Made by a program: the position numbers and the translations under genes
Source: Desulfovibrionales bacterium
GTDB lineage: Bacteria; Desulfobacterota; Desulfovibrionia; Desulfovibrionales; Desulfovibrionaceae
Assembly (NCBI GenBank): GCA_030156255.1
Contig: JASGMV010000019.1
Span: 1-59,588 of the forward strand
Direction of reading: 5' to 3'
Length of the DNA stretch: 59,588 nt
In this document: positions 53 to 14,004 of the stretch, piece after piece
How the letters are laid out: every line of letters starts with the position of its first letter
How positions within the stretch are numbered: the first letter of the stretch is position 1
The notes under the pieces: generated by a model
What the model was told of the DNA's origin: nothing
What the model saw: only the letters and a program-made list of their open reading frames with translations
The model's database searches: none

Positions 53-1756
53 CTAAAACAGCATATACCGCTGGGCCAGGGGCAGGACCTTGGCCGGTTC
101 GCAGGTGAGGAGTTCGCCGTCGGCGCGGACCTCGTAGGTTTGCGGATCGACTTCGATTTTCGGCGTGGCGCTGTTGTGGATCATGTCCGCCTTGCGCACG
201 CCGCGCACGTTTTGGCAGGCGACGAGTCGTCGGGAAAGCCCCAGGGAGCGGCCGACGTCCGCGGCCAGGGAGGCTTTGGACACGAAGCTTACGGACGTGG
301 CGGCCGCGGCGCGGCCGAATCCGCCGAACATGTAGCGGTAGTGGACCGGCTGCGGGGTGGGGATGGAGGCGTTGGGGTCGCCCATGGGCGCGGCCGCGAT
401 GAACCCGCCCTTGATGATGATGGCCGGCTTGACGCCGAAAAACGCCGGCTTCCAGAGCACGAGGTCGGCCAGCTTGCCGACCTCCACGGACCCGATTTCG
501 TGGGCCAGGCCGTGGGAGATCGCCGGGTTGATGGTGTACTTGGCGATGTAGCGCTTGACGCGGTTGTTGTCGCTGTTTTGCGAGTCGCCGGGCAGGGGCC
601 CGCGCTGGACTTTCATTTTGTGGGCGGTCTGCCAGGTGCGGCAGACGACCTCGCCCACGCGTCCCATGGCCTGGGAGTCCGAGGCGATCATGGAGAAGGC
701 GCCCAGGTCGTGCAGAATGTCCTCGGCCGCGATGGTCTCCTTGCGGATGCGCGAGTCGGCGAAGGCCACGTCCTCCGGGATGTTGGGGTCCAGGTGGTGG
801 CAGACCATGAGCATGTCCAGGTGCTCGTCCACGGTGTTGACCGTGTAGGGCCGGGTGGGGTTGGTGGACGAGGGCAGCACGTTGGGGAAGGCGCAGGCCT
901 TGATGATGTCCGGGGCGTGTCCGCCGCCCGCGCCTTCGGTGTGGTAGGTGTGGATGCAGCGGTCCTTGAAGGCCGCCACGGTGTCCTCCACGAACCCGGA
1001 CTCGTTGAGGGTGTCGGTGTGGATGGCGACCTGCACGTCGTAGCGTTCGGCCGCGTCCAGGCAGCAGTCGATGGCCGCGGGCGTGGTGCCCCAGTCCTCG
1101 TGGAGCTTGAGCCCGCAGGCGCCGGCCTCCAACTGTTCGTCCAGGCCTTGGGGCAGGCTGGCGTTGCCCTTGCCCAGAAAGCCGAAGTTCATGGGCAGGT
1201 CGTCCGTGGCCTGGAGCATCTTGCCGATGTTCCAGGCGCCCGGCGCGCAGGTGGTGGCGTTGGTTCCGGTGGTTGGCCCGGTTCCGCCGCCCAGCATGGT
1301 GGTGACGCCGGACATGAGGGCGTCCTCCGCCTGCTGCGGGCAGATGAAATGGATGTGCGCGTCCAGCCCTCCGGCGGTGAGGATTTGTCCTTCGCCGGCC
1401 AGGATTTCCGTGCCGGGTCCGATGACGATGTCCACGCCGTCCTGGATGTCCGGGTTGCCGGCCTTGCCGATGGCCGCGATGCGCCCGTTGCGGATTCCCA
1501 CGTCGGCCTTGACCACGCCCCAGTGGTCCACGATGAGGGCGTTGGTGATGACTAGGTCCATGACCTCGGGGCCGCAATGCTGGCTTTGGCCCATGCCGTC
1601 GCGGATGACCTTGCCTCCGCCGAATTTGACCTCGTCGCCGTACACGGTGAGGTCTTTCTCGACTTCGATCCACAGTTCCGTATCGCCCAGCCGCACGCGG
1701 TCTCCGGTGGTGGGGCCGAACATGTCCGCGTAGGCCTGCTTGCTGATTTTGCCCAT
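53..1756 (-). CDS. ureC: Urease subunit alpha
   Basis: Catalytic subunit of urease, hydrolysing urea to ammonia and carbamate in the cytoplasm. The 567-residue length matches the classical bacterial alpha subunit. Nickel-site residues are visible: the HxH pair at 134 and 136 (DAHIHF), the carbamylated lysine in GLKLHEDWG, the HTDTLNESG and [12 protein letters not shown] histidines, the flap histidines in MVCHHLD, and the metal aspartate in ASDSQAMGR. It is the last visible gene of the urt-ure operon, 30 nt behind ureB. With separate ureA and ureB it gives the usual three-subunit enzyme. Nickel loading would need ureD (present) and ureE/F/G (not seen here). Confidence 0.97.
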
Positions 1757-1786: not shown

Positions 1787-2092
1787 TTACAAGGCGCCCA
1801 TGATTTCGCCGCGGAAGCCGAAGATGCGGCGTTCTCCGCCGACGCGCACCAGGGTGACGGTGCGCTTGAGGCCCGGTTCGAAACGCACGGCCGTGCCGGC
1901 CGGGATGTCCAGCCGGAATCCCTTGGCCTTGTCGCGGTCAAAGGACAGTGCGGGGTTGGTCTCGTAGAAATGGTAGTGCGACCCCACCTGGATGGGCCGG
2001 TCGCCGGTGTTGGCCACCTCCAGGATCACGGATTCGCGTCCCGCGTTGTATTCGATCTCCCCGTCGGAAATGATGGTTTCTCCGGGAATCAT
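1787..2092 (-). CDS. ureB: Urease subunit beta
   Basis: Small structural subunit of urease, 101 residues, starting [14 protein letters not shown] as in typical UreB proteins and carrying the conserved [17 protein letters not shown] segment that packs against the alpha subunit. It follows ureA by 10 nt and precedes ureC by 30 nt, so the three subunits are co-translated from one message. It is not fused to UreA, unlike the Helicobacter arrangement. Confidence 0.97.
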
Positions 2093-2102
2093 GGCGCGCT
2101 CC

Positions 2103-2405
2103 TTAAATGATGGGATTGTGGACCGTGACCAGCTTGGTCCCGTCCGGGAAGGTCGCCTCGACCTGGACCTCGTGGACCATCTCGGGCACGCCTTCCATGA
2201 CGTCCTCGCGCGACAGGATGGTCCGGCCGTGGCTCATGAGTTCGGCCACGCTCATGCCGTCCCGGGCGCCCTCCATCACCGCGGCGCTGATCAAGGCCAC
2301 GGCTTCGGGATAGTTCAGCTTGAGCCCGCGCGCCTTGCGACGCTCCGCCACGAGCGCGGCGGTGAACAGCAACAGTTTGTCTTTTTCCCTTGGGGTCAAC
2401 TCCAT
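2103..2405 (-). CDS. ureA: Urease subunit gamma
   Basis: Smallest urease structural subunit, 100 residues, with the family start [14 protein letters not shown] and the conserved [15 protein letters not shown] and [10 protein letters not shown] segments. It forms the alpha-beta-gamma trimer unit with UreB and UreC. It sits directly behind ureD with a 15-nt gap containing a GAGGTAAG-like ribosome binding site. Nothing looks damaged. Confidence 0.97.
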
Positions 2406-2420
2406 GTGCTTACCTCGCTT

Positions 2421-3302
2421 TCAGGTCGTCCATATTCTCGGGGGACAGGCCTTGCGCCCCAGAAGGACGGGCCGGATTTCGGCCCAGGCCAGGGCGAACA
2501 ACCGTCGCGCCTCCTCGGCGTCGTTTCCCCGATAGCGCGTCAGCAAGACGCCGCGCCGGTGCGTGGACGCGCATACGGCGCCGGGCGCGGGGGCCAGGGC
2601 CTTTCGAACCATCGCCAGGGCCTCTTGCAACACGTCGTCCGGGCCGGCCGCGAACAGGGTTCCTGTGACCGAGGCGCCCGCCAGCCCGAAGTTGTCCGTC
2701 ATTACGCTTGCGCCGCCGGGAAAGGTCTGCCGTTCATGGAGCAGCGGCTTTTGGTCGCGGCGGATTTCCAAGGTCTGGACCACGTAACCCTTCTCGAAGG
2801 GGCGCCCTCCCGCGGGCCGGCCCAGGCACAAAATTTCCCAGCCGATGCACCGCGCGTCCCCGGCCAAGTCCACGGCCACCGAAAGATCGGCCTTGGCCCG
2901 GTCGAAGACGATGGTCTCCATGGGCGTCCACTCCACGGCAGCGTCCTCGGCGACGATGCGAACCGCCTGGCTCTGGACCGCGCCGGAGCCGTCGGCGCCG
3001 TAGGCCTTGCCCGCCGACGGGGTTGTCAACAGGGCGCGCGCGCCGGGGCGCGCCGCCGCCCGGATGGTCAGGGCGTCGCCGCTGACCAGCCCTCCCGGAG
3101 GATGCAGCAGGTAGGCGTGGCACGTCTCTCCCTCGGGATAGAAAGGCCGCTGGACCCGGAGAGGTCCCCGAAAGTCCATGCGCGCCAGGACGGTACGGCC
3201 GTTTCTTGGAGCGAACTCCAGGTCCAGGCTGGCCGGCCAGTTGCGATCCGGGCCGTATCCCCCGGCCGCGGAGTCGGCGGAGTCTTCCTGCAACGCCGTC
3301 AA
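2421..3302 (-). CDS. ureD: Urease accessory protein UreD, TTG start
   Basis: Scaffold protein that binds apo-urease and recruits UreF/UreG for nickel insertion. Conserved UreD blocks are readable: GPLRVQRPFYPEG, CHAYLLHPPGGLVSGD and the TTPSAGKAYG stretch. No ATG lies ahead of the conserved region, so I place the start at TTG 3302. That overlaps the TGA of urtE by 4 nt and has AAGGAG about 11 nt upstream; a second TTG at 3293 is possible. The predicted product is 293 residues. The overlap with urtE joins transporter and enzyme genes into one translationally coupled operon. Confidence 0.88.
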   Translation of the reverse strand: MTALQEDSADSAAGGYGPDRNWPASLDLEFAPRNGRTVLARMDFRGPLRVQRPFYPEGETCHAYLLHPPGGLVSGDALTIRAAARPGARALLTTPSAGKAYGADGSGAVQSQAVRIVAEDAAVEWTPMETIVFDRAKADLSVAVDLAGDARCIGWEILCLGRPAGGRPFEKGYVVQTLEIRRDQKPLLHERQTFPGGASVMTDNFGLAGASVTGTLFAAGPDDVLQEALAMVRKALAPAPGAVCASTHRRGVLLTRYRGNDAEEARRLFALAWAEIRPVLLGRKACPPRIWTT

Positions 3303-3994
3303 ACCGTGAGGTACTCCTTGATCAAATCGTCGGTCAATGCGCTCATGTCGTCCTCGGCCACCACACGGCCGCGGTCCATGATCGTGAACCGCTTGCCCAG
3401 CTTGCGGGCGAAGGGAAGCTTCTGCTCCACCAGCAGGACGGTCATGTCCATCTCCGTATTCAGTCGGTTGATGATCTCCGCGATGTCCTGGACCACGTTG
3501 GGCTGGATGCCTTCGGTGGGTTCGTCCAGAATCAACAGCTCCGGGCCGACCACCAGCGCCCGGCCGATGGCCAGCTGTTGCTGCTGCCCGCCGGAGAGGT
3601 CGCCGCCGCGCCGGCCCAGCATATCTTTGAGCACCGGGAAAAGCTCGAAAATAAACTCGGGGATTTGCTTTTTCTTGTCCCGCCGGGCGGGCAGGCCGAT
3701 GAGCAGGTTTTCCTCCACGGTCAGCAGGGGGAAGATCTGGCGGCCCTGGGGCACGTAGCCGACGCCCATGGGCGCGCGCCGTTCCGGCGGCGCCTTTTGG
3801 ATTTCCTCGCCGTTGTAGGTGATGGTCCCGGACTTGATGGGCAAAAGGCCCATGATGCACTTGAGCAGGGTCGTCTTGCCCGTGCCGTTGCGGCCCATGA
3901 GGCAGGCGCACTGCCCCTTGGGTACGTCCAGGCTCACGTCCCACAGGGTATGGCTCTCGCCGTAAAACTGGTTGACGTTTTCCGTTTTCAGCAT
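3299..3994 (-). CDS. urtE: Urea ABC transporter ATP-binding protein UrtE
   Basis: One of two ATPases driving the high-affinity urea importer. The 231-residue protein shows Walker A GRNGTGKTT, the ABC signature LSGGQQQQLAIGRAL and Walker B LLILDEPTEGIQPN. The IQPN wording is typical of UrtE compared with LivF. The start ATG at 3994 overlaps the end of urtD by 7 nt and the stop overlaps the ureD start, so translation is coupled on both sides. It is expected to be soluble on the inner face of the membrane, bound to the UrtB/UrtC permease. Confidence 0.95.
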   Translation of the reverse strand: MLKTENVNQFYGESHTLWDVSLDVPKGQCACLMGRNGTGKTTLLKCIMGLLPIKSGTITYNGEEIQKAPPERRAPMGVGYVPQGRQIFPLLTVEENLLIGLPARRDKKKQIPEFIFELFPVLKDMLGRRGGDLSGGQQQQLAIGRALVVGPELLILDEPTEGIQPNVVQDIAEIINRLNTEMDMTVLLVEQKLPFARKLGKRFTIMDRGRVVAEDDMSALTDDLIKEYLTV

Positions 3995-4818
3995 GCCGCC
4001 TCTCCAAGATAGACTTCCACGACCCGCGGATCGTGCTGGATTTGGTCCATGGTTCCCTCGGCCAGCACGCTCCCCTGGTGGAGCACCGTGACCTTGCGGG
4101 CGATGGAGCGCACGAAGTCCATGTCGTGCTCCACGACCACCACCGAATGCTTGCCGGCCAGGGACGTCACCAGCTCTCCTGTGCGGTTCATTTCCTGATG
4201 GGTCATGCCGGCCACGGGTTCGTCGATGAGCAGGAGCTTGGGTCGCTGCATCAGCAGCATGCCGATCTCCAGCCATTGTTTCTGGCCGTGGGACAGGGAG
4301 CCGGCGTCCCGCCAGCACTCCTCCTCCAACCCGATGATCTCCAGCACCTCGCTGATCCGGTCGCGGTCCTCGCCCTTGAGCTTGGCCTTGAGCGTGGGCA
4401 GCACTTTTTTCGATCCGGCCATGGCCAGCTCCAGATTGTGGAACACGGACTGCGTCTCGAACACGGACGGCTTCTGGAACTTGCGGCCGATGCCGGCCTG
4501 GGCGATCTCGGGTTCGCTCATCTTGAGCAAATCGAGCCGCTGGCCGTAGAACACGCTGCCTTTGTCCGGGCGGGTCTTGCCGGTGATGATGTCCATCATG
4601 GTGGACTTGCCCGCGCCGTTGGGGCCGATGACGCAGCGAAGTTCGCCGTCGTCCACGTAGAAGTTGAGCTTGTCGATGGCCTTGAAGCCGTCGAAGCTGA
4701 CGGTGACGTCCTCCATGTACAGAAGGGCGCCGCTGCGGGTCACCAGATCCGGATTGGGCACGGGACTGAGCCACTGGAGCCAGTCCTTGGGGCCGTAGGT
4801 GCGGCGTGGAAGAGCCAT
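3988..4818 (-). CDS. urtD: Urea ABC transporter ATP-binding protein UrtD
   Basis: Second ATPase of the urea importer, 276 residues. It has Walker A GPNGAGKST, signature LSHGQKQWLEIGMLL, Walker B LLLIDEPVAGMT and the switch histidine in VVVEHDMDFV. The roughly 30-residue N-terminal lead before LYMEDVTVSFDGFKAI is usual for UrtD. The start codon overlaps the urtC stop by 1 nt and the end overlaps urtE by 7 nt. Confidence 0.95.
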   Translation of the reverse strand: MALPRRTYGPKDWLQWLSPVPNPDLVTRSGALLYMEDVTVSFDGFKAIDKLNFYVDDGELRCVIGPNGAGKSTMMDIITGKTRPDKGSVFYGQRLDLLKMSEPEIAQAGIGRKFQKPSVFETQSVFHNLELAMAGSKKVLPTLKAKLKGEDRDRISEVLEIIGLEEECWRDAGSLSHGQKQWLEIGMLLMQRPKLLLIDEPVAGMTHQEMNRTGELVTSLAGKHSVVVVEHDMDFVRSIARKVTVLHQGSVLAEGTMDQIQHDPRVVEVYLGEAAC

Positions 4819-5906
4819 CAGGACGTCGCCTCCTTGCCGCGCTTGAACAGACCGATGACCCCGCGCGGCAGGAACATGGTCACGAGAACGAACAGCGCGC
4901 CCAGGGCGAACAGCCAGACCTCGGGCAGCACGGCCGTGAAATAGGTTTTACCGTAGTTGACCAGCAGGGCGCCCACCACGGCGCCCACCAGCGTTCCGCG
5001 TCCGCCGATGGCCACCCAGATGACCAGCTCGATGGAGTTCAGAGGGGAGAATTCTCCGGGGTTGATGATGCCCACCTGGGGCACGTAGAGCGCGCCGGCG
5101 ATCCCGGCCAGGACGGCCGAAACGGTGAACACGAAGACCTTGACCCGCTCCACCTTGTAGCCGAGGAACCGGGTGCGGTCCTCGGCGTCGCGTATGGCCG
5201 TGCAGACCCGGCCGAGTTTGGAGGTCACGATGCACCGGCACAGGAGGAATCCCCCGGCCAGGGCCAGGGCCGAGGCCGAGAACAGGATCACGCGCATACC
5301 GTCGCTTTGCAGGCTGAAGCCGAGCAAGTCCTTGAAGTCGGTCAGGCCGTTGTTGCCGCCGAAGCCCATTTCGTTGCGGAAAAAGGCCAGCATCAGGGCG
5401 TAGGTCAAGGCCTGGGTCACGATGGACAGGTACACGCCCTTGACCCGGGAGCTGAAGGCGAACCAGCCGAAGATAAAGGCCAGGAGGGCCGGGATCAGCA
5501 ACACCATGAGCATGGCGAAGGGGAAAGAGTCCATCCCGTGCCAGAACCAGGGCAGCTCCTTCCAGTTCAGAAAGACCATGAAGTCCGGCAGCACCGGGTT
5601 GCCGTAGACGCCGCGGGCGCCGATCTGGCGCATGAGGTACATGCCCATGGCGTAGCCGCCCAGGCCGAAAAAGGCCGCGTGCCCCAGGCTGAGGATGCCG
5701 AGGTAGCCCCAAATGAGGTCCACGGACACGGCCAGCAGGGCGTAGGTCAGATACTTGCCCAGCAAGGTCACGGTGTAGATGGACAGGTGCAGCGCGCTTC
5801 CCTCCGGGAACATCAGGTTGGACGCGGCCACGGCCGCGGAGCAGACGCACAGCACCCCGAGAAACAGGACCGTCGGTCGGTTGAAGACGGGTTCGCGTTC
5901 TTGCAT
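4818..5906 (-). CDS. urtC: Urea ABC transporter permease UrtC
   Basis: Inner-membrane permease subunit of the LivM type, 362 residues, with about ten hydrophobic segments. The conserved cores GYLGILSLGHAAFFGLGGYAMGMYL and IWVAIGGRGTLVGAVVGALLVN are intact (read as shorter blocks within those segments). It should pair with UrtB to form the channel. The ATG at 5906 lies one base after the urtB stop, with a GGAGGA ribosome binding site inside the end of urtB. Unlike urtB, the frame is unbroken. Confidence 0.95.
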   Translation of the reverse strand: MQEREPVFNRPTVLFLGVLCVCSAAVAASNLMFPEGSALHLSIYTVTLLGKYLTYALLAVSVDLIWGYLGILSLGHAAFFGLGGYAMGMYLMRQIGARGVYGNPVLPDFMVFLNWKELPWFWHGMDSFPFAMLMVLLIPALLAFIFGWFAFSSRVKGVYLSIVTQALTYALMLAFFRNEMGFGGNNGLTDFKDLLGFSLQSDGMRVILFSASALALAGGFLLCRCIVTSKLGRVCTAIRDAEDRTRFLGYKVERVKVFVFTVSAVLAGIAGALYVPQVGIINPGEFSPLNSIELVIWVAIGGRGTLVGAVVGALLVNYGKTYFTAVLPEVWLFALGALFVLVTMFLPRGVIGLFKRGKEATS

Positions 5907-5907
5907 G

Positions 5908-7460
5908 TTAATCCTCCACCGCCCGGCCCTTTTGCGGGAAGAGTCCCGTGGGGCGCTTCTGGATGAACAGAATGATGAAAACCAAAATCAGGATTTTCGC
6001 CAGCACGGCGCCGCTGACCGGTTCGAGCAGCTTGTTGATGACGCCCAGGGAAAGCCCGGCCACCAGGGTGCCCCAGAGGTTGCCGACCCCGCCGAAGACC
6101 ACCACCATGAACGAGTCGATGATGTAGGACTGGCCCAGGTTGGGACCCACGTTGGTGAGCTGGCTCAGGGCCACCCCGGCGATGCCGGCGATGCCCGAAC
6201 CGAGTCCGAAGGTCAGGGCGTCCACCATGGACGCCTTGGTCCCCATGGCCCGCGCCATCTCGCGATTTTGCGATACGGCCCGGACCTCGAGCCCTAGTCT
6301 TGTTTTTTTGAGCAACAGGAACAACGCGGCGAAGACGATCAGGCAGAACAGAATGATGTACAGCCGGTTCAGGGTCAGGGAGAAGATGGGGTTGATCTCA
6401 AGCGAACCGCTCATCCACTCCGGCGTGGACACCGAACGGTTCAGGGGAGAGAAAATGGAGCGCACCGCCTGCTGCAGGATCAGGCTCACGCCGAAGGTCG
6501 CCAGCAGCGTCTCCAGGGGCCGGCGACGAAGAGCGAAGCGCCGATGTGTTGCGGCATGAGCTGCTGGATGACGTAGGTGGTGTAGGCGCCGAGCATGATC
6601 AACTCGCCGTGGGCCATGTTGATGACGCCCATGACCCCGAAGGTGATGGCCAGCCCGATGGCGGCCAGGACCAGCACCGCGCCGAGGCCTGCGCCGAAAA
6701 ATATGGTCTCGAACACTCCGTAGATTTTGGCCTTGGCCTTGATGCCCTGGATCGCCACGTTGATGGCCTTCTTCAGTTGCGGGTCCTGGGCGCGCTCCTT
6801 CAGGTCGGTCAGGACCTGGAGCACTTCGGGGTTCATGTTGCCCTTCAGCAGCCTCACCGCCTTGAGCGCTTCGTCGCCCGAGGCCGTCTCCAGCGTGCTG
6901 ACCGCCAGGGCGACCTGGAGATGCTCCCGCACTTCGGAGTCCGTCTCCTTGGCCAGTCGGTCCTGCAGCACGGACGGATCGATTTGCCCCAGTTTGCTCA
7001 CCATGCCTGCGGCGGCCTTGCGGCGAATTTCCGCGTGCGGGCTGGAGAGCTCGCGCATGTCCAGAACGCCCCGGATTTTTTGCCGGATGGAGTTGTTGGT
7101 GCTGAGCTTGGCCACGGCGCGCTTGTTGACGTCGCCCAGGAGCTTCATGGATTCGGGGTCGAAAATGTTGTAGCGCTTGCCCTCCAGCTTGGCGATGACG
7201 ACTTTCTTCGTTTTTTTGACGTAGTAGAGATCGCCGTCCAAGAGGGCCCTCAGGAGGGCCGTGCTGAGATCCGAATCGTCCTGGGCCAGGGCGTCCACGG
7301 CCTGATCGCGGTCCGAAAGGCTCCGGCTGGTCAGGCGCTGCATGTCGGCGTCCGTGAGGGCCTGGGCCTGGGCGCTCGCCGCGAGCACGAAGAGCAGGGC
7401 CGTCAGCGCGCAGGCCGCAAGTCTGGCCGACGCCGATGGCGGGTTGCATGCAAAACTCAT
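5908..7460 (-). pseudogene. urtB: urtB urea permease gene, broken by internal deletion/frameshift
   Basis: LivH-type permease of the urea importer, disrupted. The first part (ATG 7460 to stop at 6486) encodes a signal peptide, the long periplasmic N-terminal region typical of UrtB, and the first membrane segments up to INMAHGELIMLGAYTT. The second part, in another frame from about 6525 to 5908, resumes at RPLETLLATFGVSLILQQ and runs to the normal C-terminus. From memory of UrtB homologues, 25-30 residues between these blocks are missing, so this looks like a deletion of some 80-90 nt that also shifts the frame. Without a full UrtB the importer should fail. An assembly error is the alternative. 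Confidence 0.85.
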
Positions 7461-7496
7461 GAGGGGCCTCGTTTTGTTCTCGCCGAGCCGAAAAGA

Positions 7497-7527
7497 AAAC
7501 GGGCCGCCGCCAAGCGACGGCCCGTTT
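7497..7527 (-). terminator. Intra-operon hairpin terminator/attenuator between urtA and urtB
   Basis: The arms 7497-7506 and 7518-7527 are a perfect 10-bp inverted repeat. They continue inside through one mismatch into CGC/GCG around a 3-nt loop. On the minus strand the stem is followed by TTTTC TTTTC, a terminator-like tail. It sits 13 nt after the urtA stop and before urtB, which would let the binding protein be made in excess over permease, ATPases and urease. Confidence 0.75.
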
Positions 7528-7539
7528 CCATTCATACGG

Positions 7540-8829
7540 TTATTTGTAGTTCTGGCCGGAGCACTTGTGGGTCTTGACGTTGTAGTTGCCGCAAGACAGC
7601 GGAGCGCGCCAGTCGGAGATGATGTCCTTGGAGCCGGGCAGGTAGTTGGACCATGCGTCGCCCACCACGGTGCCGGGCGTCTGCCAGACCACCTGGAATT
7701 GGCCGTCTTCCTGGATCTCGCCGATGAGCACGGGCTTGGTCAGGTGGTGGTTGGGCATCATGGTGGCGATGCCGCCGGTCAGGTTGGGCACGGCCACGCC
7801 GATGAGGGCGTCCGCCACTTTGGCGGGATCGGTGGAGCCGGCCTTTTCAACGGCCTTCACCCACATGTTGAAGCCGATGTAGTGGGCTTCCATGGGGTCG
7901 TTGGTCACGCGGTCCGCGTTTTTGATGTAGTCGTGCCATTTCTGGATGAACTCGTCGTTGACGGGCGTGTCCACGCTTTCGAAGTAGTTCCAGGCGGCCA
8001 GGTGTCCCACCAGGGGTTTGGTGTCGATGCCGGACAGCTCTTCTTCACCCACGGAGAAGGCCACGACGGGGATGTCCTCGGCGGAGATGCCCTGGTTGGC
8101 CAGCTCCTTGTAGAAGGGCACGTTGGCGTCGCCGTTGATGGTGGAAACCACGGCGGTTTTCTTGCCCGCGGAGCCGAACTTCTTGATGTTGGCCACGATG
8201 CTCTGCCAGTCGGAGTAGCCGAACGGCGTGTAGTTGATCATGATGTCGGCGTCTTTCACGCCTTTGGCCTTCAGGTAGGCTTCAAGAATCTTGTTGGTGG
8301 TGCGGGGGTAGACGTAGTCCGTGCCTTCCAGGACCCAGCGCTTCACCTTGAGATCGTTCATCAGGTAGTCCACGGCCGGGATGGCTTGCTGGTTCGGCGC
8401 GGCGCCGGTGTAGAAGACGTTCTTGGAGGATTCCTCGCCTTCGTACTGGACAGGGTAGAACAGGATGCTGTTCAGCTCTTCAAAGACGGGCAGCACGGAC
8501 TTGCGGGACACGGAGGTCCAGCAGCCGAACACCACGACGCATTTGTCCTTTTCGATCAGCTCGCGGGCTTTCTCGGCGAACAGGGGCCAGTTGGAGGCCG
8601 GGTCCACCACGACAGGCTCGAGTTTTTTGCCCAGCAGGCCGCCTTGTTTGTTCTGCTGATCGATAAGCATCAACATGGTGTCCTTCAGGGTGGTTTCGCT
8701 GATGGCCATGGTGCCGGACAGCGAGTGAAGGATGCCCACCTTGATGGTGTCCTCGGCGTGGGCGAAACCAGCGGACACGAGCAGCATCAAAGCCACCAGG
8801 GGCGCAACCAGGATTTTGCGAGTCGCCAT
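7540..8829 (-). CDS. urtA: Urea ABC transporter substrate-binding protein UrtA
   Basis: Periplasmic urea-binding protein, 429 residues. I chose ATG 8829 because it has AAGGAG 7 nt upstream and begins a clear signal peptide (MATRKILVAPLVALMLLVS, cleavage after HAE). The mature protein opens with DTIKVGILHSLSGTMAISE, and has FGCWTSVSRKSVLPVFEE, FYPVQYEGEE and NYFESVDTP blocks that separate UrtA from general LivK proteins. First gene of the operon, downstream of the sigma-54 promoter at 9078-9094 with a leader of about 235 nt. The longer frame reading upstream is basic and unlike a protein start. Confidence 0.95.
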   Translation of the reverse strand: MATRKILVAPLVALMLLVSAGFAHAEDTIKVGILHSLSGTMAISETTLKDTMLMLIDQQNKQGGLLGKKLEPVVVDPASNWPLFAEKARELIEKDKCVVVFGCWTSVSRKSVLPVFEELNSILFYPVQYEGEESSKNVFYTGAAPNQQAIPAVDYLMNDLKVKRWVLEGTDYVYPRTTNKILEAYLKAKGVKDADIMINYTPFGYSDWQSIVANIKKFGSAGKKTAVVSTINGDANVPFYKELANQGISAEDIPVVAFSVGEEELSGIDTKPLVGHLAAWNYFESVDTPVNDEFIQKWHDYIKNADRVTNDPMEAHYIGFNMWVKAVEKAGSTDPAKVADALIGVAVPNLTGGIATMMPNHHLTKPVLIGEIQEDGQFQVVWQTPGTVVGDAWSNYLPGSKDIISDWRAPLSCGNYNVKTHKCSGQNYK

Positions 8830-9524: not shown

Positions 9525-9950
9525 ATGCGGTTGTACCCCCTTGCGGCGCCGGCGTGTTTCGCGCTTGTTGCGCTCCTGGCGCTCTCCGGATGCGCAAAAA
9601 AGCCGGTGCTTTATCCCAACGCAAAATTGGAGCGGACGGGCGAGGCCCAGGCCCAGGCGGATATCGACGCGTGCATGCAGATGGCCCGCGACCACGACGC
9701 GGAGTCGAGCAAGGCCGGCAAGGTCGCCAAGAGTTCGGCCGGCGGCGCCGCGCTTGGCGCGGCCGGCAGCGCGGTCTGGGGCGCCATCATGGGCCGCAAC
9801 GTCGGAACCTACGCTGCGGCCGGAGCGGCTACCGGGGCCGTCACCGGGGGCTTGGCCGGCGTGTTTTCCTCCTCGGACGATCCTATTTTTCAGAACTTCG
9901 TGGACCGCTGCCTGAAGGAAAAAGGCTACGAGCCCATGGGATGGCGCTGA
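9525..9950 (+). CDS. Glycine-zipper outer-membrane lipoprotein
   Basis: 141 residues; the start at 9525 is chosen for its GGGAGG ribosome binding site and for the signal peptide it begins (MRLYPLAAPACFALVALLAL, lipobox LSGC). After the acylated cysteine come a short acidic helix (ADIDACMQMARDHDAES) and a Gly/Ala-rich zipper (GGAALGAAGSAVWGAIMGRN through ATGAVTGGLAGVF). A conserved tail, FVDRCLKEKGYEPMGWR, follows. This is the layout of small glycine-zipper lipoproteins that insert in or line the outer membrane. The exact role is unknown. It is followed after 18 nt by another probable lipoprotein gene. Confidence 0.8.
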   Translation: MRLYPLAAPACFALVALLALSGCAKKPVLYPNAKLERTGEAQAQADIDACMQMARDHDAESSKAGKVAKSSAGGAALGAAGSAVWGAIMGRNVGTYAAAGAATGAVTGGLAGVFSSSDDPIFQNFVDRCLKEKGYEPMGWR

Positions 9951-9968
9951 CCGCCGCGCGAGGTGACC

Positions 9969-10526
9969 ATGATCCGTAAGAAGGCGTTTTGGATTTTTTG
10001 CGTTACGGCCTTGGCCCTGGCCTTTGGTTGCTCGACGATCGAGCCCACGACCCTCATGAACCGCGACGGCGGGAACGTCGTGCGTTTCTTCAATCCCGAA
10101 ACGGGACTCCGGGCCGAAATCCGGATAGCTCCGGCCTATGCTTTCTTGCGCGAGGCCAACACCACGGTGAACGGAGTTGCTCTGCAAGGCCCGGTTTACG
10201 CCAACGGAGACGATTACGTCCTTGTGACCGAACTCTCCCAAGACGGATTTTCCCGCCTGGGCGGCGAGGTGAAGCCTTCCGGTCGAGCCGTGCGCCCCTT
10301 GGACACGGAGCCGACGCTCCAGACGGAGTTCTGCCTGCTCAACTTCGCCAAGGCCGCGGCGATGGGAGATGACGTGGTGGGCGCCGTGTTCATGCGCGAC
10401 CTCTCCGCCGGCGCAACCAACGCAACGTGTCCCTGGCGCTCCCTTGAGGAACTGGAGCAAGACCGGCCGGGCATGCTGGAAGCCTACAAAGAAACCGCAG
10501 CCGAAGCCGTGACGACCAGTTGGTAG
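9969..10526 (+). CDS. Probable exported lipoprotein, unknown function
   Basis: 185 residues from ATG 9969 (GAGG 5 nt upstream; GTG 9963 in the same frame is a weaker choice). The N-terminus is MIRKKAFWIFCVTALALAFG followed by Cys, a signal peptide with a non-ideal lipobox because Phe is at -2. The mature part has no domain I recognise; it contains a FFNPETGLRAEI stretch, a FCLLNFAKAA segment and two further cysteines. It lies 18 nt behind the glycine-zipper lipoprotein, so the two are probably co-transcribed and may act in the same envelope process. Confidence 0.7.
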   Translation: MIRKKAFWIFCVTALALAFGCSTIEPTTLMNRDGGNVVRFFNPETGLRAEIRIAPAYAFLREANTTVNGVALQGPVYANGDDYVLVTELSQDGFSRLGGEVKPSGRAVRPLDTEPTLQTEFCLLNFAKAAAMGDDVVGAVFMRDLSAGATNATCPWRSLEELEQDRPGMLEAYKETAAEAVTTSW

Positions 10527-10629
10527 CGCCGACGGTCGGTTGTTCGACCCGAGCCGGAGTCGTCCATAAAGTTTAGAGAAAATTTTGAGCTTTTCGAGCG
10601 CGCCTGTCGCCGTGCATCTTCCGGTTTTG

Positions 10630-11829
10630 TCAAATGCTAATCTTTCCGGACCGCAGGGCGTAATAGGCCGCGGCGCCAAGTACGTATCCCAACGCCAAGT
10701 TGGAGGCCAGGGTCACGCCGACGATGGTCAGGCAGACGAACAGGTCCGAGCGCTCCCGCATGTCCTGGACGGCGAGGGCGAGTTGCGCGCCGCCGAAAAA
10801 GAGCAGCACGCCGAGTACGGACATGGGGATCAGCCGCGCCACGGCGGCTACGTTGGGGCCAAGGAGAACGGCCAGGACCACGAAGACGGCGCCGATGATC
10901 AGATTCGATCCGGCGCTGCGGGCGCCGAAGCGGTAGTGCGCGGCCAAGCCTCCGGCGCCGTGGCACATGGGCATGCCGCCCAACAGAAAGCCGCCGATGT
11001 TGGCCAGGCCCATGGATATGCACAAGTTCTTGTTGGTGGTCTTGACCGCGTCTTCGCCGAAGTATTCCTGGGCCAAATCCGCATTGGCCACCACGGCGTT
11101 GCCCAGGGTCATGGGGAGCTGGGGCAGAGCCAGCACGAACAGGGCGGTCGTGAAGGCGGAAGCGGAGGGAAATCCGGCGGGCAGCAGGCTGGGCAGGGAG
11201 GGGGCCAAAATCAGGTCCGTTTCCGGGCCGCCGAACAGCAAGCCGACCAGGACGCCCGAGCAGACCACCACCAAGGCGGCCGGGAGTTTTTTGTTGTTCA
11301 GGAAATAGAGCGTGGCCAACAGGGCCAGGACGCCCAAAACCCAGTGCAGGGGGAGGGGGCCCAGGGAATGGACGGCCATGAACGGCTCCGCGGCCCGGCA
11401 TTCCCGCTGGAAGGACGAGGTTCCCAGGACAAAACGTACGCCCTGGGCCATGAGCAGCAGCGCCGTGGAGAGTTGAACGCCGCGGACCACGGGTTTGGGG
11501 ATGAGCTTGGCCAGTCGGTTCATGGCGCCTGTCAGGCCGATGGCGAGCAGGATGATCCCCACGCAGAGCCCCGCGGCCAGGATTTGCTCCCGGGGCAGAG
11601 CCATGGCGATGGCCAGGGAGCCGATGACCTTCATGGGCTGCACCGGAATCGTGGTCCGGAAATACAAGCCGGCGGCGATGTAGAAGAGGCCGACGCCGGC
11701 GAACAGCCCCCTGGCGTACATGCCGTTGACCATGATCATGCCGGCCGCCATGGGCAGCAGCACGCCAAGATCGCCGAGGGAGCCGGCGAGTTCGCGCCGA
11801 TTGAGCGTGATGGGCATCATGGAGCGCAT
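10630..11829 (-). CDS. MOT1-like molybdate/sulfate permease
   Basis: 399-residue inner-membrane protein with about ten hydrophobic segments. The motifs GSLGDLGVLLPM, TTIPVQPMKVIGSLAIA, LPQLPMTLGNAVVA and GGMPMCHGAGGLAAHYRFGARS match the MOT1 branch of the sulfate-permease superfamily, known for molybdate (sometimes sulfate) uptake. There is no STAS domain, as expected for MOT1 types. Genes on both sides run the other way, so it is a single-gene unit. In an anaerobe with Mo/W enzymes, molybdate is the likelier substrate, but the sequence does not settle this. Confidence 0.85.
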   Translation of the reverse strand: MRSMMPITLNRRELAGSLGDLGVLLPMAAGMIMVNGMYARGLFAGVGLFYIAAGLYFRTTIPVQPMKVIGSLAIAMALPREQILAAGLCVGIILLAIGLTGAMNRLAKLIPKPVVRGVQLSTALLLMAQGVRFVLGTSSFQRECRAAEPFMAVHSLGPLPLHWVLGVLALLATLYFLNNKKLPAALVVVCSGVLVGLLFGGPETDLILAPSLPSLLPAGFPSASAFTTALFVLALPQLPMTLGNAVVANADLAQEYFGEDAVKTTNKNLCISMGLANIGGFLLGGMPMCHGAGGLAAHYRFGARSAGSNLIIGAVFVVLAVLLGPNVAAVARLIPMSVLGVLLFFGGAQLALAVQDMRERSDLFVCLTIVGVTLASNLALGYVLGAAAYYALRSGKISI

Positions 11830-13735: not shown

Positions 13736-14004
13736 TTGTTGTGAGATTGTAAGACACGAAACCGACATGCATGTTGCCTCAGGCGCGCGGCGTCTTTACG
13801 CCGTCTTTGCGTCTGTTCCGTGAAAATAGCGTGTCGAAAGAAGAGAGAGGCCGCGACGCAGCTTCCGGATTCAAACGGGCTTTCTTCGTCGCGTTGCTTG
13901 AATCGGGGGCATGGTCAGCCGCCATGGCCCACCGGCGCGGCGCAAGGCGGGAGCGGACGGTCAGCGGCGCGCGGGTGGCGCGGTCCGAGATGCTTTTGCC
14001 GAAA
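13736..14004. other. Intergenic stretch, no gene seen
   Basis: About 270 nt between the start of the HD gene and the terminator of marR. It should carry the minus-strand promoter of the HD gene. Frames reading through here are basic, lack a ribosome binding site and look non-coding. Confidence 0.5.

Follow-up and report, generated by a model that had tools for sequence, protein, structure and literature searches.

Introduction

UrtB (TIGR03409, PF02653) belongs to the urea ABC importer UrtABCDE. In a cyanobacterial study (PMC6737895), inactivation of urtA, urtB and/or urtE in Anabaena and Synechocystis lowered urea uptake by 97–98%, and the survey in that study counted 23 strains with urease genes and without urtABCDE. 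The locus described here resembles those strains and mutants in combining urease genes with an importer that would not work; it differs from the cyanobacterial strains without urtABCDE in that four of the five importer genes are intact and only the fifth is broken, by a small deletion. Set against known UrtB, the broken gene belongs to the same family by both of its pieces and keeps the same neighbours (urtA, urtC, urtD and urtE, together with ureD, ureA, ureB and ureC), but it is 76 nt short, its frame is broken and it does not encode a complete UrtB. We consider it probable that this urtB carries a recent, ordinary inactivating 76-nt deletion within the gene and is a pseudogene, with importer function lost.

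Results

The window analyzed is one whole contig of 59,588 bases from a draft genome of 3.84 Mb (106 contigs, 99.28% complete). Its urea genes, clustered on the minus strand, are ordered urtA, urtB, urtC, urtD, urtE, ureD, ureA, ureB, ureC, which places urtB between urtA and urtC and near the urease genes, as expected of a UrtB gene. Reading frames are open and family models are matched for urtA (urea-binding protein, 7540..8829; TIGR03407, with an invariant-column comparison), urtC (second permease, 4818..5906; TIGR03408), urtD (ATPase, 3988..4818; TIGR03411), ureD (urease accessory protein, 2421..3302; PF01774 positions 1–201), ureA (urease gamma subunit, 2103..2405; TIGR00193), ureB (beta subunit, 1787..2092; TIGR00192) and ureC (alpha subunit, 53..1756; TIGR01792 positions 1–568); urtE (ATPase, 231 aa, 3299..3994) is intact by full-length alignment to relatives. 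An earlier note on this DNA, made from the letters alone, had described an otherwise intact urea operon, which holds for these eight genes and is less sure for the urease as a whole. The contig begins 52 bases past the ureC stop, leaving ureE, ureF and ureG outside the window; ureF and ureG are found at the end of another contig, C50, beside an insertion-sequence-like end, and searches of the assembly with two Pfam models gave no ureE, a gene that would be expected close to ureC and ureF. It may fall in an assembly gap or be absent from the strain; retention of urease in the strain is likely. With up to one mismatch allowed, the genome contains 24 occurrences of the tandem insertion-sequence-like end 'GACCGGGGACATNGGTAACA', in many cases less than 100 bases from a contig end, and one pair lies ~70–110 bases upstream of ureF (~5054–5098 of locus L118, at the end of C50).

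On the minus strand, urtB runs in the correct frame from an ATG at 7460 to ~6523, where the frame jumps. Fragment A (6486..7460; 324 aa) comprises a signal peptide assigned by eye, a HEAT-like domain at the N terminus and permease helices one and two (TIGR03409 positions 2–66, PF02653 positions 2–62, and a relative's model). It tracks UrtB up to '...GASLFVA' and then ends in 11 foreign, out-of-frame residues ('...GASLFVAGPWRRCWRPSA') before a stop at 6486–6488. Fragment B (5908..6522) holds the rest of the permease, picking up in another frame at RPLETLLATFGV and continuing through to 5908 (TIGR03409 positions 91–291, PF02653 positions 88–268). The fragments are thus consecutive portions of both models, with about 24–25 TIGR03409 positions uncovered between them in the profile match. 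Against the TIGR03409 cut-off of 250.3, fragment A scores 82.5, below it, and fragment B 295, above it as a partial match; no single protein spans the whole model, and a full-length UrtB is not found. Motif spacing, the relative's model and the breakpoint comparison together place the junction at ~6522/6523 (6520..6526), to within a few bases.

The size of the gap follows from the distance between the conserved GAYTT and RPLET motifs. In the window 68 nt separate them; the usual spacing in relatives is 144 nt (76 of the 79 measured), the others having 138 nt (two) or 156 nt (one). This count leaves out L044 (variant motif; 144 nt when counted by eye), L109 (masked there) and L007 (exact motifs absent). 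The window's urtB therefore lacks 76 nt, that is 25 codons plus one base, which is not a multiple of three. These results bear out the earlier note's reading of a deletion plus frameshift, with a first frame ending 'GASLFVA', foreign residues, a stop at 6486 and resumption in the next frame; its estimate of 80–90 nt was right in not being a multiple of three and slightly too large by the motif spacing in relatives. The genome assembly yielded neither another urtB nor a duplicate of either half, and the other own-genome matches to urtB, among the matches listed, are paralogues at 24–35% identity. The gene thus has the marks of a pseudogene: homology to intact genes and a broken frame, in a genome where no intact copy was found.

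What the deletion removes was located on an AlphaFold2 model of UrtB from Marinobacterium nitratireducens (28-sequence alignment, mean pLDDT 81.7). Residues 313–337 of the model have no counterpart in the window's urtB; they make up almost all of helix 305–335, which is the third in the permease domain, so that the gene does not encode the full set of permease helices. The 30 residues upstream of RPLET contain a 15-residue stretch with a mean Kyte–Doolittle hydropathy of at least 1.91 in 78/78 relatives measured. Judged from the model, a normal UrtB protein is impossible by frame-shifting or restart, because the lost residues are almost all of helix 305–335 and the helix would still be left out. 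Translational bypassing and programmed frameshifting were considered for urtB and rejected, since the gene has lost bases, not gained them, and neither piece contains the helix.

The two fragments could instead be made as separate polypeptides that form a working or altered importer with UrtC. Fragment B is still open and conserved, and its nearest downstream start codon, a GTG at 6489–6487, overlaps the stop of fragment A in a GTGA stop–start arrangement (6486–6489). Even so, by the model a whole transmembrane helix would be in neither product; a GTG-started fragment B would lack RPLETLLATFG, invariant in 28/28 aligned relatives; the missing segment is carried in frame by 79/79 relatives measured; and no ribosome-binding site was seen by eye just upstream of the GTG. 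We regard this arrangement as very improbable.

A relative's UrtB gave no match at E ≤ 0.001 to solved structures by sequence search, nor at E ≤ 0.001 by fold search; the top fold-search rows, all above that threshold, were importer permeases (e.g., 2nq2 and 7kyp) and alpha-helical repeat proteins. In relatives, UrtB carries an N-terminal domain that looks secreted and is modelled as HEAT-like repeats, equivalent to ~6720–7380 in fragment A of the window. This domain makes up most of fragment A, which is much less conserved than fragment B, with a best identity of 45% vs 85%.

To gauge the age of the break, alignment columns that do not vary among relatives were compared. Deviations number 0/25 in fragment A and 0/84 in fragment B; the same test on the intact neighbours gave 0/160 for urtA, 1/120 for urtC, 1/77 for urtD and 0/36 for urtE. 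Because both halves match every tested invariant column, the comparison suggests a break that is either very recent on the substitution scale or absent from the organism. The second branch of this alternative corresponds to a fault in the assembly or its consensus, or to the assembler's choice of a deletion variant carried by a minority of the culture, the strain's own urtB being intact. Perfect agreement at all tested columns is what would be seen if purifying selection had never lifted, and a false deletion would equally show no further decay in either half; the 106 contigs, with many insertion-sequence-like ends close to contig ends, and a further frame-broken permease on contig C83 point the same way. 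Against it, the flanks of the break are colinear, and the earlier note's suggestion to look for short repeats at the breakpoints, followed up through relatives, yielded only 0–5 nt of homology at the equivalent positions in 78 of them (L109, masked, left out), a figure that describes the relatives' equivalent positions rather than this strain's own lost bases. Such homology would appear insufficient to cause repeat collapse of the usual kind in a short-read assembly. A loss of 76 nt is, moreover, not a typical base-calling error.

The general rate of frame breaks bears on the same question. A codon-based frame-break detector found 108/120 simulated breaks, a figure made optimistic by training and testing on overlapping sets of window genes, and raised 0 flags in 23 unaltered window genes. 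Within the window it flagged urtB and the urtD/urtE overlap. Applied to 60 stretches chosen by contig number rather than at random (909 predicted coding segments in 1,112,126 bases), it gave 40 flags, 13 in 364,796 bases and 27 in 747,330 bases; all 13 of the first set and 6 of the 27 in the second were inspected in full, and the other 21 were judged from segment ends only. One flag is a likely within-gene break (in L177) and one is undecided (L169, at 13380). The remainder resemble overlaps of neighbouring genes or spurious calls; two flagged pairs (L156 and L159), the only ones with a clear family answer, belong to different families by Pfam. This low rate in the sampled assembly indicates that frame breaks are rare and favours a real urtB lesion. 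Taken together, the evidence, which comes from one draft genome of a single strain, leans toward a real deletion over an assembly fault, and we judge the latter, including the minority variant, unlikely, if still to be reckoned with. The earlier note had left the choice between a strain that recently gave up high-affinity urea import but retained urease and a faulty assembly; the lesion is upheld, as are its approximate size and recency, and the choice now tilts to the former.

The likely break in the sample (L177 ~13884–13995, contig C3) lies in a beta-propeller (PQQ-like) repeat protein apparently split into two frames; the assignment was made by eye from repeat motifs common to both pieces, of which the second is a beta-propeller by Pfam and the first is without a Pfam hit.

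A second permease gene is also split. The livH-type gene on contig C83 (~9,850–10,750; L151:1852–2753, minus strand) is divided by a one-base frame break into pieces covering PF02653 positions 3–168 and, in the next frame, 171–269, and its neighbours, a binding protein and a second permease, are open with family matches. This gene and urtB are the two split members among the genome's 10 PF02653 permease genes, as compared with one likely and one undecided break among the 909 sampled coding segments; urtB was chosen because it is broken, and the fair comparison is one further break among nine PF02653 genes, which is suggestive and not strong. The strain might be shedding small-solute ABC permeases serially, urtB by deletion and the LivH-type gene by a one-base break, a reading we hold to be doubtful. 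If true, it would imply that importers are being selected against, in a rich or ammonium-replete culture for instance, and are not decaying at random.

Discussion

We favour the account in which urtB lost 76 nt, most likely through replication slippage or short-homology end joining, between ends that share no more than a few homologous bases. The deletion would take out the third permease-domain helix and shift the frame. Fragment A would then yield two helices followed by eleven foreign residues, and fragment B, if restarted at the overlapping GTG, a product without the helix and without the RPLETLLATFG motif. UrtC would be left without a partner, and for that reason the UrtABCDE importer would not work. 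By analogy with the published mutants, the strain is probably without a functional UrtABCDE importer, and urea would enter only by diffusion or other routes, with urease still able to act on internal or diffusing urea. Among other possible routes, a profile search for the UT family (PF03253) gave no hit in a run whose control was silent too, and one for AmiS/UreI (PF02293) gave no hit in a run whose control matched one genome only, below the cut-off.

For annotation, a genome with urtABCDE and urease would be scored as urea-scavenging, though the importer here is probably dead. If reads confirm the deletion, the strain would offer a natural loss of urtB with urease kept, useful for asking whether urease serves internal urea. 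A literature search on urtB frameshift and urea found no published account of this strain's urtB, a weak negative.

Among the relatives searched, no same-genus genome was listed, and a close UrtB occurs in only 1/22 same-family genomes (59%) and 1/16 same-order genomes (61%). A plasmid collection returned 23 matching records, 0 of which covered 80% of the query, the best listed reaching 19%. Among the best 80 loci, those closest to fragment B are UrtB of Gammaproteobacteria (up to 84–85%) and Desulfobulbaceae (83%). The urt genes (3299–8829) are nearer to gammaproteobacterial and Desulfobulbaceae genes than to their own family's UrtB, and by these similarities they were likely acquired horizontally.
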